Assembly (NCBI GenBank): GCA_958296105.1
Contig: OY282441.1
Coordinates: forward strand, 2,687,800-2,751,799
DNA: 64,000 bases
Direction: 5' to 3'
DNA from: an uncultured Dehalococcoidia bacterium
GTDB lineage: Bacteria; Chloroflexota; Dehalococcoidia; Lucifugimonadales; UBA1123
Below, in pieces: positions 8,354-21,669 of the stretch; position 1 is the first letter of the stretch; every line of letters starts with the position of its first letter. Under the pieces are notes generated by a model that did no database searches, was not told where the DNA came from, and was given only the letters and a program-made list of their open reading frames with translations. A program made the position numbers and the translations under genes.

Positions 8354-8710
8354 TCAGCCGATTCTCGTCAGCCGCTCTATCAGCTCCCTGGCGTCGTCTA
8401 TGCCCCCCTCGACGGACTTTTCCGAGAGCCAGTTCTCGTGGAAGTTGGTGTGCAGCATTCCCACGCTTCTGTACAGGGTGCGAACTCTCCGAGGGTCGTC
8501 CGACTCGTCTGCGAGTCGGTCCGCGATTATGCTCAGAGCGCCGTGCGATCCGTGGCTCCATCCCCGCCGCTCTGCGATGGACTTCAGGCAGTGCGCCGCC
8601 GCTCCCCACGCCTTTTCGGACGCCTGCAACAGGTCGCCCTCGCGGAACATGTTCTCTGCGTGGTGGAGAAAGTCGGCGCTTATGTCCGCGTGTCTCTCTA
8701 CTGTCGCCAT
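8354..8710 (-). CDS. PaREP1-family (HEPN-like) protein, array copy 5
   Basis: 118 residues and the first copy in transcription order, only five bases after the NHL-repeat gene stop. It is the most distinct copy (ERHADISADF, IIADRL, NFHENWLSEKS) and is the likely founder, because its ribosome binding site lies inside the authentic end of the NHL gene, whereas the other copies carry a duplicated fragment of that end. Confidence 0.82.
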   Translation of the reverse strand: MATVERHADISADFLHHAENMFREGDLLQASEKAWGAAAHCLKSIAERRGWSHGSHGALSIIADRLADESDDPRRVRTLYRSVGMLHTNFHENWLSEKSVEGGIDDARELIERLTRIG

Positions 8711-8715
8711 GCGAT

Positions 8716-9726
8716 CTACACCCTCTGATAGACTTGGAAGCGGTGGCGGCCTGTCTCCAGTACGTAGACGCGCTCCTGAGCGTCCAGCGCGACCCGGACC
8801 GGATCCCAGAAGTACGGCTCGATTCTGGCGGAGACCTCGCCGGGATCGTCCGTATCCGTCTCGAAGACGGGGACGAACCTGGAGCGCGCGTCCAGCTCGT
8901 CGGCGTTGGCGTTGAGGTACTCCACCGCCCATTCGCCTAGAATCGCGTCTCCCCTGAGCTGGGTCAGGAATCTGCCGTCTCGGTCGAGAACCTGCACCCG
9001 CTGGTTCATCCAGTCGGCTATGTACATGTTGCCGTCCGAATCCACCGCCAGCCCGGACGGGCGGCTGAGCTGTCCTTCGCCTCGCCCCGATTCGCCGAAC
9101 TTGGCTACGAACTCGCCGTCTGGGGTGAACTTCTGTATACGGTCGTTGCGCCAGTCGGCCACGTACAGGAAGCCCTCGTCGTCGCTGGAGATGCCCCAAG
9201 GCAGGTTCAGCTCCCCGTCGCCGCTGCCGAACGCCCCCCACTTGGAGACGAACCGGCCGTCCTTCGTGAACTTCTGAACGCGGTGGTTGCGGTGATCGAC
9301 GAGCAGCAGGTCGTCGTTCGCGTCGAACAGCAGGCCGGATACGCCGTCGAACTCGCCGTCGCCACTGCCCTTCGTCCCCCACGTCGCGCTCACGCCGCCC
9401 TCGCGGTCGTACACCGTAACCCGCTGTAGGAAGTCGTCTGCCAGATAGAGGTTGTCTTGGCTGTCGAGCGCGAGCGCGGACGGCCAGATCATCTGGCCCG
9501 GCGCCTGGCCGTGCGAACCGAGCTGGCCAAAGAACTGGTGGTCGATGGTCGCCATCTGGATGCCCACGATGTCCAGAGCGTTCATGTTGCTTCGGCTGGC
9601 GACGAATATGCGCCCGTCTCCGCGAATGGCGAAGTCCGTCGGCAGGTGGAAGCCGCGCCCCCCTTGGTCGGCAACGAATCCGACTGTGGTGACCGGCTCC
9701 AGCTGAAAGGCTGTCGATGTTGTCAT
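8716..9726 (-). CDS. NHL-repeat beta-propeller protein
   Basis: A 336-residue protein with at least four NHL blades, each of the form (Y/L)VADWRNDRIQKFTPDGEFVAKFG, at about residues 75-110, 125-160, 170-205 and 215-255. NHL propellers bind ligands or act as scaffolds; some are lyases, but the catalytic residues of peptidylglycine lyases are not evident. No signal peptide was found. It sits 85 bases after DUF1800 and 5 bases before the PaREP1 array, so it belongs to that operon. Its function in the cluster is unknown. Confidence 0.85.
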   Translation of the reverse strand: MTTSTAFQLEPVTTVGFVADQGGRGFHLPTDFAIRGDGRIFVASRSNMNALDIVGIQMATIDHQFFGQLGSHGQAPGQMIWPSALALDSQDNLYLADDFLQRVTVYDREGGVSATWGTKGSGDGEFDGVSGLLFDANDDLLLVDHRNHRVQKFTKDGRFVSKWGAFGSGDGELNLPWGISSDDEGFLYVADWRNDRIQKFTPDGEFVAKFGESGRGEGQLSRPSGLAVDSDGNMYIADWMNQRVQVLDRDGRFLTQLRGDAILGEWAVEYLNANADELDARSRFVPVFETDTDDPGEVSARIEPYFWDPVRVALDAQERVYVLETGRHRFQVYQRV

Positions 9727-9811: not shown

Positions 9812-11254
9812 TCAGACCATCTGGTACTCCTGCGTCGTCACGATCAGCTGGATGAGCGTCACCGCGCGCCTGTCGCCCTCCTCGCTCGGCAGGGTCGTGT
9901 CTCCCCACTTCTCCGCATACTCGATCAGCCCGTCTCTGGTCGAATCGAGAACCGGAAGCGGGCCGAGCGCATCGAGGCAGGCGTCCACGAGCCTTTGCGG
10001 AGACAGCGCCATGCCGTATGCGCCGTCCGCCATACGGTCTATGATGGCGCGTATGCCCGGCTTGTTCGGATCGTTGAGAACGCGGCTGGCGAAGTTGACG
10101 CGCTGGACGTATGCGCCGGTGTTTATCCATTCGCTCCCGCCCTGCCAGCCCTCCACGCTCGGCGGCGCCAGAAGGCCCTGACCCATAGCGGCGCACGCTC
10201 CGGCAGCGGCGTAGGTGTCCGTCGAGGGCAGGTCTATCGGGCCTGCGAGCCGCATCGTTCCCACGACCATCTCCGCCGGACTCTTGATCCGCGCGAACCG
10301 AGACGCCTCGGACTTGAAGAAGTCGGAGTTGAACATAGCCCTGAGCATGGCGGAAATCTGGAAGCCAGAGTCGAAGTACGCCTGCGCCATGATCTCTATG
10401 GCTTCCGGGTCTCTGGGTCCGAAGTGCGGCCACTGCGGCACGGGCAGCTCGTCCGCCACGAAGAAGTGATACAGATGCCGAGCGATGAATCGCGCCGTGG
10501 CGGGCTGGCGACAGATGATGTCCACCACGTCCTCGCCGTTGAAGTCGCCGACCTCGCCGAGGAAACGCTTCTCCTCGTGATCGTGGTCATCGTCGTCGTA
10601 CTCGAACTGCCACGCGATATAGCCGTATGGCCTAGCGGTGTTGTTGCGCATCTTGATCGACATGTAATCGGGGTTGACCACGCGCCAGCCCGTGAAGGCG
10701 CGCGCGCACTCCTTGATGTCGTCCTCGGTGTAGTTGCCGACTCCCATCGAGAACAGCTCGAGTATCTCGCGCCCGTAGTTCTCGTTGATCGAGTCTTTGT
10801 GATTGTCCTGATTGTCCAGCCACATCAGCATGGCGGGATCTCGGGACAGCCGAGCCAGTATGTCCCTGAAGCTGCCCATGCCGTACTGCCTGAACATTTC
10901 GACTTGGTTGACCACCATGCGCGCCTGTATCAGCTTGGTGGACGCAGTGGCGAAGATGCGGTGCCAGAAAAGACACATCTTCTCTCTGAGAACCGCGTCG
11001 GTGTTGACCATCCGGTAAACCCAGTGGGCAGCAGCCGCGCCGCCGTTTCGCAGATCTGACTGGTCCACGTGGTAGCGGCGGATCAGGTCCTCGGGCATCT
11101 CGCAGTCGGACGCGGGATTCAGCAGCCCCTCTACGGCGGCCTCGTATCCCATCTCCATGAAGCGGTCCAGCTCGTCCGGGGTTGCGCCGAATCCGGCTCG
11201 CCTGAGCAGATGCGCCATCAGCGCAACATCTTGCCTCTCTTGGACAGTCGTCAT
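9812..11254 (-). CDS. DUF1800 domain-containing protein
   Basis: A 480-residue protein that starts (ATG 11254, behind AAGGAGA) with MAHLLRRAGFGATPDELDRFMEMGYEAAVEGLLNP, the diagnostic opening of DUF1800. Further family blocks are MCLFWHRIFATAST, NENYGREILELFSMGVGNYTEDDIKECARAFTGW, FLGEVGDFNGEDVVDIIC and FLAPPSVEGWQGG-type LLAPPSVEGWQGG near residue 375. DUF1800 proteins are of unknown activity and usually travel with DUF1501 proteins, as here. It is the first gene of the 11.3-5.6 kb minus-strand run and has its own promoter. Confidence 0.92.
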   Translation of the reverse strand: MTTVQERQDVALMAHLLRRAGFGATPDELDRFMEMGYEAAVEGLLNPASDCEMPEDLIRRYHVDQSDLRNGGAAAAHWVYRMVNTDAVLREKMCLFWHRIFATASTKLIQARMVVNQVEMFRQYGMGSFRDILARLSRDPAMLMWLDNQDNHKDSINENYGREILELFSMGVGNYTEDDIKECARAFTGWRVVNPDYMSIKMRNNTARPYGYIAWQFEYDDDDHDHEEKRFLGEVGDFNGEDVVDIICRQPATARFIARHLYHFFVADELPVPQWPHFGPRDPEAIEIMAQAYFDSGFQISAMLRAMFNSDFFKSEASRFARIKSPAEMVVGTMRLAGPIDLPSTDTYAAAGACAAMGQGLLAPPSVEGWQGGSEWINTGAYVQRVNFASRVLNDPNKPGIRAIIDRMADGAYGMALSPQRLVDACLDALGPLPVLDSTRDGLIEYAEKWGDTTLPSEEGDRRAVTLIQLIVTTQEYQMV

Positions 11255-11288
11255 ACTGATTCTCCTTGCCATATTCGAGTTCGCCATG

Positions 11289-11453: not shown

Positions 11454-12599
11454 ATGACTTTGAGAGGACATGCGGCCATAGTGGGAATCGGCGAGGTGCC
11501 GACCCGCAGGCTGCTCGAAGGCAGAACGCTCTACGGCTTGTGCGCCGACGCCGCGAGAATGGCGATCGCAGACGCCGGACTGCGCAAGCAGGATATAGAC
11601 GGCATCGTGACGGACGGCGCGGCGGCCCCTGCGATGATGGCAGAGTACATAGACATCGAGCCTAGCTTCGCCACCGGCGTATCCATGCAGGGCGCGAGCG
11701 GAGCGTCCGCGACCACGGTCGCCGCCAGCGCGATCAGCGCCGGGCTGTGCGACACCGCCCTGGTGGTCATGGGCAGCGCCAGAGCGTCGCGCCCCGTTCC
11801 GGGTGGGCCATCCGTCCGCTCGGAGTGGGAGGAGCCTTACGGCATGGCGCCCGGAGCCGGCACCGGATACGCGCTGATCTACAATCGCCACATGTACGAG
11901 TATGGCACCACCCAGGAGCAGATGGCGAAGGTGGCGTCCGACCAGCGCTTCAACGCCGAGCGCAACCCCAACGCCGTGTTCCACGGACAGCCCGCCAGCC
12001 CGCAGGACATCCTGAATTCGCGCTACATAAACTACCCGCTCCGCCTGCTGGAGTGTGTCATGCCCTGCGACGGCGCGGCGGCGCTGATAATCACCACGCC
12101 CGAGCGCGCCAAGTCGCTCCCCAACCGCCCCGCCTACCTGCTCGGCGCGGGCATGGATCAGTCCAACGCCAACATCTGGCAGACAGACCGAATCACCACC
12201 ACGCCCGTAGCCGCCAGCGCCCGGCGCGCCTTCCAGATGGCAGGGTACGGACCGGGGGACATGCAGTTCGCCGAATTCTACGATTGATACACCATCCTCG
12301 TGGCCGTGAGCCTCGAAGATGCCGGATTCGTTCCCAAGGGCGAGATTGGCCCGTTCTACGAGTCCACCGATACGACCTACAAGGGGAGTTTCCCCATAAA
12401 CACGGATGGCGGACAGCTCTCTGGCGGACAGCCCGGACTAGCCGGCGGCTTCAGGCACGTCATAGAGGGCGCGCGCCAGATAATGGGCAAGGCTGGGGTC
12501 AGGCAGGTGCCCCGAAACGACTTGTGTATGGTGAACGGTTGAGGTGGCACGGCGAGCGAAATGTGCTCGCTGGTCCTCGGGTCCGAGGACGCAATCTAA
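11454..12599 (+). pseudogene. Thiolase-like (SCP-x type) gene with two in-frame TGA codons
   Basis: Read through both TGAs, the frame encodes 381 residues, the normal size for this family, and ends at TAA 12597-12599. The ATG at 11454 follows GGAGGGA. The N-terminal domain has GHAAIVGIGEVPTRR and RMAIADAGLRKQDIDGIV; the C-terminal half has NTDGGQLSGGQPGLAGGF and ends GGTASEMCSLVLG. TGA 1 (12285-12287, codon 278) falls in EFYD-x-YTILVAVSLEDAGF, the position of the Cys of the SCP2-thiolase HDCF motif. TGA 2 (12540-12542, codon 363) falls in VNG-x-GG, next to the C-terminal catalytic loop. There is no indel. The usual nucleophile Cys is Ala here (MQGASGAS) and the GHP His is Gln, so a classical thiolase reaction is doubtful. 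It may be a pseudogene or a recoded gene; a truncated 277-residue product is the default reading. Confidence 0.75.
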
Positions 12600-12706
12600 G
12601 CCAGCAGCTATCGGACGGCGGCAGAAGCCGCCACCCGATATTCTGATATATCCCCGTTGTGCAAGGGCGGCCTATGCCTGTCCGCTGTGGCGGGCGAGGC
12701 CCAAGC

Positions 12707-12745: not shown

Positions 12746-12755
12746 GATGAACCCC

Positions 12756-13172
12756 ATGACGACCACATACTCCAAGCCGCTGCCCGTATCCATGAACCCG
12801 GAGCTTTCCAGACCGTTCTGGGAAGCCGCCAAGCGTCACGAGCTAGTACTGCCGCGCTGCAAGACCTGCTCCAACACCTTCTTCTACCCGCGTGAGATCT
12901 GCCCCAGCTGCATGTCGGACGATCTCGACTGGACGCCGGCGAGCGGCAGAGGCAGGCTCTACTCGTTCACCATCGTGCATCAGACGGCGCATCCGGCGTT
13001 CCAGATCGAAGCCCCGCACGTCTACGCGATCATCCAGCTCGACGAAGGCCCTCGGATACCCTCCAACCTCATCGACTGCCCAATCGAGGAAGCTCGAATA
13101 GACATGCCCGTAGAGGCGGTGTTCGAAGACGTCTCGGACGATTACACTCTCGTGAAGTTCAGACCGGCGTAG
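12756..13172 (+). CDS. DUF35 OB-fold/zinc-ribbon acyl-CoA-binding protein
   Basis: A 138-residue protein with a rubredoxin-type zinc ribbon (CKTC...CPSC, residues about 36-52) followed by an OB-fold domain (GRGRLYSFTIVHQTAHPAF...PHVYAIIQLDEGPRI). DUF35 proteins form complexes with SCP-x-type thiolases, bind acyl-CoA, and are usually encoded next to them, as here. The start at 12756 is preferred to ATG 12747 because GTGAGG is nine bases away. The reading frame is intact, which is notable given the interrupted thiolase just upstream. Confidence 0.92.
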   Translation: MTTTYSKPLPVSMNPELSRPFWEAAKRHELVLPRCKTCSNTFFYPREICPSCMSDDLDWTPASGRGRLYSFTIVHQTAHPAFQIEAPHVYAIIQLDEGPRIPSNLIDCPIEEARIDMPVEAVFEDVSDDYTLVKFRPA

Positions 13173-18403: not shown

Positions 18404-19231
18404 ATGAACGGCTACGAGTTGAAGCAGAAAGTCCAAGCCGGCGGGATAGTGTACGGCACCATGATAAGCCTGAGCCGAAATCCGCGCTGGACTGCGCCGA
18501 TGGCAGACTTCGGCTTGGACTACGTGATCATCGACAGCGAGCATTCGCCCAGGGGCCGCTCCGAGATGGCAGACTTCATCGCGGCGTTCTCGTTCAGCGG
18601 AGTCGCCCCGATCGTCCGAATCCCGATCCCGGACTCGCACTACGTGACGATGGCGCTGGACGCGGGCGCGCACGGCATACTGGCGCCGTACTGCGAGACG
18701 GTCGAGGAGGTCAGCGATGTCGTGGCTGCCGCCAAGTGGCGCCCGCTCAAGGGCGCGACGGTGCGAAAGGTGATGGAGACCGGAGAGTTCCCCTCGCAAG
18801 CCACCAGAGACTACCTCGAAGCGCGCAACCGAAACAGCGTGTGCATCATCGGAATCGAGAGCGTTCCCGCAATCGAAAACCTCGACAATATCCTCCAAGT
18901 CGGCGGCGTCGACGCGGTCTTCGTAGGCCCGAACGACCTGAGCATCACTCTCGGCATTCCCGACCAGTACGACCACCCCGACTACGAGGCGGCGCTCCGT
19001 GAGGTCATCCGCATCTGCCAGAAGCACGGCGTCCCCAATCTGTTCCACCACCAGACCGTCGAGCTGACCACGAAGTGGCTGCGCGAGGGCGTCCGCTTCG
19101 TGCTGTACAGCTCGGACGCGCGCGAGATGCACAACGGCTTCCGCCAAGACTTCGGCATGATCAAAGACGTCGGCGCCGAGATCGAAGGCGTCGCGTCGGA
19201 AGACGTGGGCGAATCTCAAGAAGTGATCTAA
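18404..19231 (+). CDS. HpcH/HpaI aldolase/citrate lyase family protein
   Basis: A 275-residue class II pyruvate aldolase-type TIM barrel. It has LDYVIIDSEHSPRGRSEMADF, GAHGILAPYCETVEEVSDVV (metal and substrate region) and VDAVFVGPNDLSITLG. Members cleave 2-keto-3-deoxy-4-hydroxy acids to pyruvate and an aldehyde using a divalent metal. The ATG follows AGGAGG. It stands alone between the HigBA promoter and the SMP-30 gene. The exact substrate is unknown. Confidence 0.93.
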   Translation: MNGYELKQKVQAGGIVYGTMISLSRNPRWTAPMADFGLDYVIIDSEHSPRGRSEMADFIAAFSFSGVAPIVRIPIPDSHYVTMALDAGAHGILAPYCETVEEVSDVVAAAKWRPLKGATVRKVMETGEFPSQATRDYLEARNRNSVCIIGIESVPAIENLDNILQVGGVDAVFVGPNDLSITLGIPDQYDHPDYEAALREVIRICQKHGVPNLFHHQTVELTTKWLREGVRFVLYSSDAREMHNGFRQDFGMIKDVGAEIEGVASEDVGESQEVI

Positions 19232-19561: not shown

Positions 19562-20458
19562 TTGTCTTGGAACTTCACCAATGTAAACGGACCATACGGC
19601 GGCACCAGCGAAGGTCCGGCATGGGATGGCAGCGGCTTGCTGTTCACCCTCATCCCGTACAGCTACATCATGCGCTACGACCCCGAAGCGCGCGCGTCCA
19701 CGATCTACAAGGAAGGATCCAACAACGCCAACGGTCTGATGCTCGACCCAAGCGGAACGCTGTTCGCCTGCGAGGGTGGCGGGCGGCGTGTCGTTCGCTA
19801 CGAGGCCGACGGCAGCGCGACCGTCCTCGCCGACGGCTTCGAGGGGCAGAAGCTCAACGTTCCCAACGACTTGGCCATAGACCCGCAGGGCCGCGTCTGG
19901 TTCACCGATCCGTTTTACGAAGGCGCGGGCGGAGCGTGGTCGCAAGACCGATCCAACAAAGAGCTGGATCACGACTCCGTTTACAGGCTCGACCCCGGCG
20001 AAGACGACAGCTGGGCCATCAGCCGAGTCACGTTCGACACCACGCGCCCCAACGGACTGCTGTTCTCGCTCGACCACTCCACCCTGTACGTGGCGCAGAG
20101 CGGCAGGATGCCGGATGAGAAGCGCGAGCTTCGGGCATATCCAGTCAACGAGGACGGCGGCTTGGGAGACGGCGAAGTGATTCACGACTTCGGCGCCAAC
20201 CGAGGCATCGACGGCATGTGCCTAGACGTCGAGGGGAACATAGTGGCGACTGCCGGAAACCGCGCAGGCGGCCCCGGCCCCATGATCTACGTCTTCTCCC
20301 CCTCGGGCGAGGTGGTGGAGACCCACCCGCTCGACGTCGATCAGCCAACCAACTGCACCTTCGGCGGCCAAGACCTGTCCACGCTCTACGTCACCACCGG
20401 CGAAGGCCATCTGCTCAGGGCGTTCACCGAGCGACAGGGGCGGCTGCTCTACCCGTAG
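19562..20458 (+). CDS. SMP-30/gluconolactonase/LRE-family protein
   Basis: A 298-residue six-bladed propeller of the SMP-30 family. The metal ligands can be placed: Glu in TSEGPAWD (about 17), Asn in NVPNDLAIDPQGRVWFTDP (about 100) and the Asp region GIDGMCLD (about 215). Members hydrolyse sugar or other lactones. The start is TTG at 19562, behind AAAGGAAA; it gives the usual N terminus, just ahead of the first blade. It is 14 bases upstream of the FAD oxidoreductase gene and probably cotranscribed. Confidence 0.88.
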   Translation: MSWNFTNVNGPYGGTSEGPAWDGSGLLFTLIPYSYIMRYDPEARASTIYKEGSNNANGLMLDPSGTLFACEGGGRRVVRYEADGSATVLADGFEGQKLNVPNDLAIDPQGRVWFTDPFYEGAGGAWSQDRSNKELDHDSVYRLDPGEDDSWAISRVTFDTTRPNGLLFSLDHSTLYVAQSGRMPDEKRELRAYPVNEDGGLGDGEVIHDFGANRGIDGMCLDVEGNIVATAGNRAGGPGPMIYVFSPSGEVVETHPLDVDQPTNCTFGGQDLSTLYVTTGEGHLLRAFTERQGRLLYP

Positions 20459-20472
20459 GCGCGCGAGGCGAC

Positions 20473-21669
20473 ATGCCAGAGTCCGAGGTCCTGATAATCG
20501 GCGGTGGAATCGCCGGAGCGTCCACCGCCCTGTACTTGGCGCGGCGCGGGCGCGATGTGGCGCTCGTGGAGCGCGGCGAGATAGCGTCCGAGGCGTCCGG
20601 TGTCAACGCCGGACAGATCGGCGCCATCGGCTGGGGCGACATGCCCGATCTCTCCGCGTATCTCACGATGGGCAGCCTTCGGCTCTTCGAGGAGCTTCAG
20701 CTCGATCTCGGATACGACATCGAGTTCAGGCAGTCAGGTTCGCTCACGGCTATCCACACCCTCGAACAGTACGGCTATATCCGCGACCACGTCCACTCGA
20801 TGCGCGCTCGCGGATTCGATCTGGCGCTTCTCACTCCGCGCGAGGCGCGCGCAATAGAACCGGAGATAAACCCCAATCTACCCGGTTACATGCACACGCC
20901 GCTGCGCGCGCAGGCCGACCCGGTGAAGGCTACGCGCGCGTTCGCCGCCGCCGCTAGGAGTTCGGGCGCGCGCATCTTCGCAAACCACGAAGTTGGCGGA
21001 GTCGCGCCGTTAGCGGACGGCGGCTACTCGGTGGCGACGGGTCGGGGCGAGTTCAGGTGCGGCGCGCTGGTGGTCGCCGCCGGAGCGTGGAGCGCCCGAA
21101 TTGGGGAGATGCTCGGACTTCGTATTCCGATAGTCCCTGTCAGAGGCCAGATGTGGGCCACGCCCAGCCTTCCGCCGATGGTGTTCCAGACCATATCTTC
21201 AGCGGAGTCGTCCCACGATTGGAGCATGGATGACGGAGGCGACGCCCGCACCCCGCCCGAGCTTACCCACCGAGGAGATGCGCGCGTGACTCGCCATCTC
21301 TACGGCAGGCAGCGCAGAAACGGCGAGATCATCTTCGGCGGAGACAGGCAGCTAGTGGGGTTCGACAAGAGTGTCGACCACACGGGCATCGAGGTGAACA
21401 GGGGACATGCCTCGGAGGTCATACCGCTGCTGAACGGCATTCCGGCGGCGCGGACGTGGGCAGGCCTCATGCCCTTCACGCTGGACGGGCAGCCACTGAT
21501 CGGGCGCGTCCCAACGCGCGACAACCTGTACATCGTGGGCGGACTGGCAAGCTCAGGCTTCGGTCGCGGTCCGATGGCGGGCAAACTCCTAGCCGACTAC
21601 ATCCACACCGGCCATATGCCTCATATGCTGTTCGAATCCGATCCGGATGGGCGCGTGACCGATCTCTAG
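20473..21669 (+). CDS. FAD-dependent oxidoreductase, DAO/glycine oxidase-like
   Basis: A 398-residue protein with the N-terminal GGGIAGASTALYLARRG fold, the DAO middle domain with VPVRGQMWATPSLP, and the C-terminal FAD-contact block TWAGLMPFTLDGQPLIGRVP...GGLASSGFGRGPMAGKLLADY. Such enzymes oxidise secondary or primary amines or D-amino acids. The ATG at 20473 follows GAGG. Its last codons (ESDPDGRVTDL, then TAG) occur again, in degraded form, before Uma2 copies 2 and 3. Confidence 0.92.
   Translation: MPESEVLIIGGGIAGASTALYLARRGRDVALVERGEIASEASGVNAGQIGAIGWGDMPDLSAYLTMGSLRLFEELQLDLGYDIEFRQSGSLTAIHTLEQYGYIRDHVHSMRARGFDLALLTPREARAIEPEINPNLPGYMHTPLRAQADPVKATRAFAAAARSSGARIFANHEVGGVAPLADGGYSVATGRGEFRCGALVVAAGAWSARIGEMLGLRIPIVPVRGQMWATPSLPPMVFQTISSAESSHDWSMDDGGDARTPPELTHRGDARVTRHLYGRQRRNGEIIFGGDRQLVGFDKSVDHTGIEVNRGHASEVIPLLNGIPAARTWAGLMPFTLDGQPLIGRVPTRDNLYIVGGLASSGFGRGPMAGKLLADYIHTGHMPHMLFESDPDGRVTDL

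Follow-up and report, generated by a model that had tools for sequence, protein, structure and literature searches.

Does a thiolase-like gene whose reading frame contains two TGA codons represent a gene in decay, or do these codons specify amino acids? The question arises from a frame at positions 11454-12599 on the forward strand of the window, i.e. the 64,000-nucleotide stretch of Dehalococcoidia DNA analysed here, which is part of a single-contig genome of 3.18 Mb. A preliminary description of the locus considered selenocysteine (Sec) type recoding the more suggestive explanation and also allowed for two point mutations in a young pseudogene. We report strong comparative evidence indicating that both TGA codons would be read as Sec in a genuine selenoprotein gene, a reading to which we assign a probability of roughly 0.93. 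Specifically, Sec would be inserted at both positions by the SelA/SelB/SelD/tRNA-Sec system of the cell, and recoding at each TGA would depend on a separate SECIS hairpin that lies immediately 3' of it within the coding sequence. The supporting data comprise TGA/Cys exchange at codon 278, recurrence of TGA at codon 363, SECIS-like signals, low dN/dS and the sel genes of the same genome.

The thiolase-fold gene and its surroundings

With TGA counted as a residue, frame 11454-12599 gives 381 residues followed by a TAA terminator, and its translation agreed with the preliminary description in that neither TAA nor TAG occurs inside it. The in-frame TGA codons are confined to codon 278 (TGA 1, 12285-12287, forward strand; putative Sec278 in the motif YD-U-YTI) and codon 363 (TGA 2, 12540-12542, forward strand; putative Sec363 in VNG-U-GG). 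The motifs as originally read, FYD-x-YT and VNG-x-GG with Ala in place of the nucleophile Cys and Gln in place of the GHP His, were likewise correct. The assignment as a double-Sec thiolase-fold gene is based on the open frame with its two TGA codons, homologues that share them, Pfam family PF22691 and an AF2 model. The Pfam Thiolase_C_1 match spans both TGA codons, and the NCBIfam matches of the protein are thiolase and lipid-transfer subfamilies, none of the families listed for it being a selenoprotein model.

A DUF35 partner gene follows at 12747-13172 on the forward strand (PF01796 and PF12172; start placed at 12747), and these two domain matches support the earlier statement that it is intact. 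Its product has a ChsH2-type zinc ribbon (CxxC-x10-CxxC) and an OB fold. Of 62 Sec-thiolase loci, 56 have a same-strand DUF35-type ORF after the thiolase gene, and the outer neighbours that recur at these loci include, from sequences read by eye, crotonase/SDR genes, type III CoA-transferases and a pyruvate-dehydrogenase-like complex. Also near the thiolase locus in the window are genes for an HpcH/HpaI aldolase (18404-19231) and an FAD-dependent oxidoreductase (20218-21669), while upstream of the thiolase gene, on the opposite strand, lie a PaREP1-domain gene (8354-9382) and a DUF1800 gene (9812-11287).

Codon states at positions 278 and 363 among homologues

Both TGA codons were present in at least one homologue in 10 of 60 related genomes, at 55-88% identity, and this recurrence places the two-TGA pattern far beyond chance. 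In genomes G004 and G006 the closest copies have TGA at codon 363 only, codon 278 being TGC. A scan of contigs from the genomes of 84,980 species brought in a further 78 loci, almost all in SAR202/Dehalococcoidia (Chloroflexota) genomes. In total, TGA occupies codon 363 in 70 distinct homologous genes; at codon 278, 37 of these have TGA and 33 have Cys (TGC/TGT), with no other state. Both TGA positions are kept in dozens of species, down to approximately 51% identity. The nearest non-Sec relatives have Cys at 278 and Asn (AAC/AAT) at 363; in more distant thiolases position 278 is mostly Ser, Ala or His and position 363 is Thr and others, and Cys was found at codon 363 in no homologue examined. 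Hence, the expectation from the preliminary description that homologues would have Cys or Sec at both codons held for codon 278 but not for codon 363, where Asn and not Cys is the alternative. A conserved UGA interchangeable with Cys, which is a criterion for selenoproteins, is thus seen as Cys exchange at site 1, with Asn exchange at site 2.

Across a 94-row tree, codon 278 switches between Sec and Cys at least 10 times and the state of codon 363 switches 7 times. Some rows with Asn363 (L138, L129 and L135) are nested in Sec clades or adjacent to them, a placement suggestive of losses of Sec, the change count itself being unpolarised. One of these, L135, is a Cys/Asn-type relative with 52% identity from a MAG titled Bordetella parapertussis, a title that is apparently a mislabel. 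Six loci (L093, L095, L097, L098, L113 and L114) have tandem pairs of Sec-type thiolase genes, and in L097 the two copies differ in their Sec/Cys state at codon 278. Four TGA-free thiolase copies with one internal TAA or TAG (G036:C17:654-1778, G035:C10:137-1279, G005:C67:36145-37257 and G026:C43:133-1308) are, in contrast to the TGA family, probably pseudogenes or assembly errors.

Selenocysteine machinery

The preliminary description proposed a search for selA, selB, selC and selD, and we found selA, selB, selD and tRNA-Sec above cut-offs in the same single-contig genome, the tRNA-Sec having a UCA anticodon and an Rfam score of 66.2. The selD gene (L044:1501-2418) has a single in-frame TGA close to the N-terminal end of its product (CAGUASKF), such that SelD is itself a selenoprotein here. 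Among other genomes, SelB was above cut-off in all 10 Sec-thiolase genomes of one test set, and none was seen above cut-off in the Sec-thiolase genomes G006 and G032, which are both incomplete (83% and 74%, respectively). SelB is absent from several genomes with only Cys/Asn-type genes (G204, G284 and G458-G460) and present in other such genomes.

SECIS-like hairpins and selection

Between TGA 1 and TGA 2 the dN/dS ratio of close pairs is 0.01-0.13; past TGA 2 the estimate rests on 18 codons, too few for a firm ratio. The sharpest of the selection tests is synonymous codon identity in 10-codon windows (372 windows). Among pairs of Sec278 genes whose proteins are 50-65% identical, constraint is highest at codons 279-288 (0.71 vs 0.44 gene-wide, rank 1 of 372), while in Cys278/Sec363 pairs this segment is unexceptional (0.37 vs 0.35 gene-wide, rank 112). 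Codons 364-373 rank 2 of 372 in the Cys278/Sec363 pairs and 296 in the non-Sec homologues. The synonymous constraint therefore tracks the presence of TGA.

The SECIS-like hairpin after TGA 1 (12298-12316, forward strand) has a 7-position stem (12298-12304/12310-12316), of which 6 pairs form in this gene, and a 5-nt loop, CGTGA, which begins 17 nt past the TGA; its MFE is -12.0. After TGA 2, the corresponding hairpin (12546-12575, forward strand) has an MFE of -20.6 kcal/mol (45 nt after TGA) and an apical loop that begins 16 nt past the TGA, and its register varies between clades. The bSECIS criteria are a loop 16-37 nt from the UGA, a loop size of 3-9 nt with G in the first two positions, an upper stem of 4-16 bp and an MFE of at most -7.5 (PMC13188914). 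Both hairpins fall within these ranges, although at site 2 the G comes first in the loop only when the closing G-U pair is left open.

With a fixed register, which was picked on these same sequences, Sec rows pair at 0.91 after TGA 1 and at 0.70 after TGA 2, against synonymous nulls of 0.67 and 0.44, respectively. Cys rows at TGA 1, and Asn and other rows at TGA 2, do not depart from the null. The pairing signal is mostly conservation and not covariation, since shuffling of codons within columns leaves a slight excess. In free energy relative to synonymous resampling, the TGA 2 region has a mean z of -2.17 in Sec genes and -0.04 in non-Sec homologues, while the TGA 1 region has a z of -0.63, no lower than some control positions. 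For this weak MFE signal at site 1 we therefore rely on the synonymous constraint and the contrast between Sec and Cys genes. Seen in this way the weak hairpin originally noted by eye after TGA 1 is real, with pairing and synonymous constraint specific to Sec genes, even if its free energy alone is unremarkable; the stretches past both TGA codons, which had been suggested for bSECIS prediction, are SECIS-like, and this behaviour is gone in the Cys or Asn versions. Searching positions 12200-12700 against Rfam gave nothing at E≤5, a result of little weight given the diversity of bacterial SECIS elements.

Decay and code reassignment

Had only one genome been available, a recently decayed gene in which two TGA codons arose by chance mutation, or errors in sequencing, would have fitted the data, and four other thiolase copies in related genomes do have an internal TAA or TAG. 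The TGA codons of the present family, however, recur in dozens of species that are as little as approximately 51% identical, in a frame free of TAA and TAG where dN/dS between the two TGA codons is far below 1. We consider decay or error ruled out by the conservation and the dN/dS values, its residual probability being negligible, and the pseudogene alternative raised in the preliminary description is thereby excluded; the checks suggested there that were carried out all favour Sec. In-frame TGA in conserved genes would also be seen if TGA were a sense codon in an alternative genetic code, or if a near-cognate tRNA read it as Trp or Cys. This is very improbable, and we reject it given that selA and selB have no internal TGA, that a thiolase paralogue in the same genome (L004) terminates in TGA and that tRNA-Sec(UCA) is present. 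Furthermore, the two sites match Cys and Asn, not one residue, and TGA is avoided as a terminator in Sec genes only: it ends 1 of 70 Sec genes vs 16 of 32 non-Sec homologues (p = 4e-9, which is optimistic as the rows are related).

Fold, active site and closest known systems

The AF2 model of the protein has a mean pLDDT of 94.3, and its best PDB match is 9MYR (Z 57.7, 1.8 Å over 375 residues, 41% identity), the Sal-Shy(DUF35) structure of the bile-acid side-chain aldolase CtSal from Comamonas testosteroni (PMC12329534), followed by Ltp2-ChsH2 (Z 53.1) and then other thiolase-superfamily complexes. Comparison of sequence and fold indicates that the protein is a Sal/Ltp2-type, DUF35-partnered thiolase-fold acyl-CoA enzyme that lacks the nucleophilic Cys of thiolases. 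The fold alone is no proof of function, yet the catalytic residues agree too.

In the alignment to CtSal, Tyr276 corresponds to Tyr302, Sec278 to Cys304 (of the YDCY motif in 9MYR), Gln321 to Gln347 and Gln326 to Gln352, while Sec363 corresponds to Thr389 and Gly365 to Gly391, which places Sec363 two residues ahead of the oxyanion-hole Gly391. Both Tyr302 and Cys304 are needed in CtSal, and replacing Cys304 by Ser, Ala or His abolishes activity; roles proposed for the other residues are activation of Cys304 by Gln347 and Gln352 and a contribution of the Gly391 amide to the oxyanion hole (PMC12329534). Tyr276, Asp277, Tyr279, Gln321, Gln326, Gly364 and Gly365 are invariant in all 70 Sec genes. 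The two systems share the fold, a DUF35 partner, GGQLSxGQ with both Gln residues, the loss of the nucleophilic Cys, the oxyanion-loop GG and the YD-[C/U]-Y motif, in which Sec replaces Cys in about half of the Sec genes, this gene included. They differ in that the present gene has Sec for the catalytic Cys304, Sec for Thr389 and Ala135 for the oxyanion-hole Gln161 (Ala in 57 and Met in 13 of the 70 Sec genes). Moreover, DUF35 is here encoded on its own as a small protein whose zinc ribbon is CxxC-x10-CxxC, whereas that of CtSal has a C3H1 finger and is fused to a MaoC hydratase.

The Ltp2-ChsH2(DUF35) aldolase (PDB 6OK1) is likewise a thiolase-fold retro-aldolase with a DUF35 partner, but it has a YDHF motif and a catalytic Tyr344 where the present protein has YDUY and Gln326. 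The SCP2-thiolases of Leishmania mexicana (3ZBG) and zebrafish (6HRV) share the fold (Z approximately 47), and the Cys of their HDCF motif is at the Sec278 position, as the preliminary description had it; the Sal/Ltp2 thiolase-fold aldolases are nevertheless the better comparison. Unlike the protein discussed here, SCP2-thiolases carry both the nucleophile Cys and the GHP His. Position 81, that of the nucleophile, is Ala, Ser or Gly and the GHP His is Gln326 in 70 of 70 Sec genes, such that the N-terminal nucleophilic Cys and the GHP His of classical and SCP2 thiolases are absent throughout.

Possible chemistry

The likeliest reaction, at about even odds, is cleavage or formation of C-C bonds in beta-hydroxy- or beta-keto-acyl-CoA, and the function that we propose is that of a selenium-dependent acyl-CoA C-C lyase. 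By alignment, Sec278 would take the role of CtSal Cys304 as proton donor or acceptor to the acyl-CoA enolate, with Tyr276 as its partner and with Gln321 and Gln326 holding it in place. Sec363 in the oxyanion-hole loop may serve next to the thioester as an additional acid/base or as a group that stabilises the enolate; alternatively, it may pair with Sec278. Its role is the least certain step. Two non-redox selenols in one active site, with Sec278 in proton transfer and Sec363 (from Asn) as a second catalytic group, is the arrangement that we tentatively put forward at slightly below even odds. Counting against the proposed chemistry as a whole, Ala135 replaces Gln161, so that the active site would not be a copy of that of CtSal, and the lower pKa of a selenol is not obviously a gain for a general acid.

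Redox enzymes are thought to make up most of the known selenoproteins (PMC13188914), and alignment places both Sec residues in active-site loops of a protein that has lost the nucleophile Cys. The two could then form a redox pair, as a diselenide or as selenenylsulfides with neighbouring Cys, the thiolase fold having been converted to that of an oxidoreductase or of an enzyme under redox control. We find this unlikely: about half of the genes with Sec363 have Cys278 and the non-Sec relatives have Asn363, so the pair is not needed family-wide, and the CoA-enzyme fold, the catalytic Tyr and Gln residues and the DUF35 partner are all kept. A restored covalent, thiolase-like mechanism, where one Sec is acylated in place of the nucleophile Cys and the other acts as acid/base near CxG, appears more doubtful still. 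It would agree with the replacement of the classical nucleophile by Ala, Ser or Gly and with the end-point offsets of structural alignments, which put Sec363 within a residue or two of the classical CxG cysteine; this equivalence, however, goes no further than that, and hhalign comparisons with E. coli AtoB and FadA are unreliable C-terminally. The GHP His is moreover Gln in 70 of 70 genes, and the nearest relatives, having Asn363, manage with a single chalcogen.

Novelty and implications

No thiolase, aldolase or acetyl-CoA acetyltransferase is among the 119 prokaryotic selenoprotein families and subfamilies of a 2026 inventory (PMC13188914), the table of which takes in the families of Haft and co-workers (2023, 2025). 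The double selenoproteins of its Table 1 (for example MbdU, TsoB and the UxxU metal-binding protein) also have two UGA-encoded Sec residues, but none is thiolase-fold. Thiolases are not mentioned in the deep-Sep paper, and no report of a selenium thiolase was found in the titles and abstracts of the open-licence literature; an earlier description elsewhere is possible. Within the open-licence literature and the 2026 inventory, a two-Sec thiolase-fold selenoprotein family is apparently undescribed.

A thiolase-superfamily enzyme with two Sec residues and a probable role at the C-C bonds of CoA thioesters would broaden the known uses of selenium. Many selenoproteins are thioredoxin-like in fold. 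If the non-redox reading with two selenols is true, Sec would here take part in acid/base or covalent catalysis at C-C bonds. The natural Sec/Cys pairs, with at least 10 switches at codon 278, offer a way to ask what selenium contributes at one catalytic position. At codon 363 Sec stands in place of the Asn of relatives, and none of the homologues examined has Cys there. Automatic annotation may split such SAR202 genes or label them as pseudogenes. SAR202 is an abundant deep-ocean lineage, and the finding bears on its metabolism.
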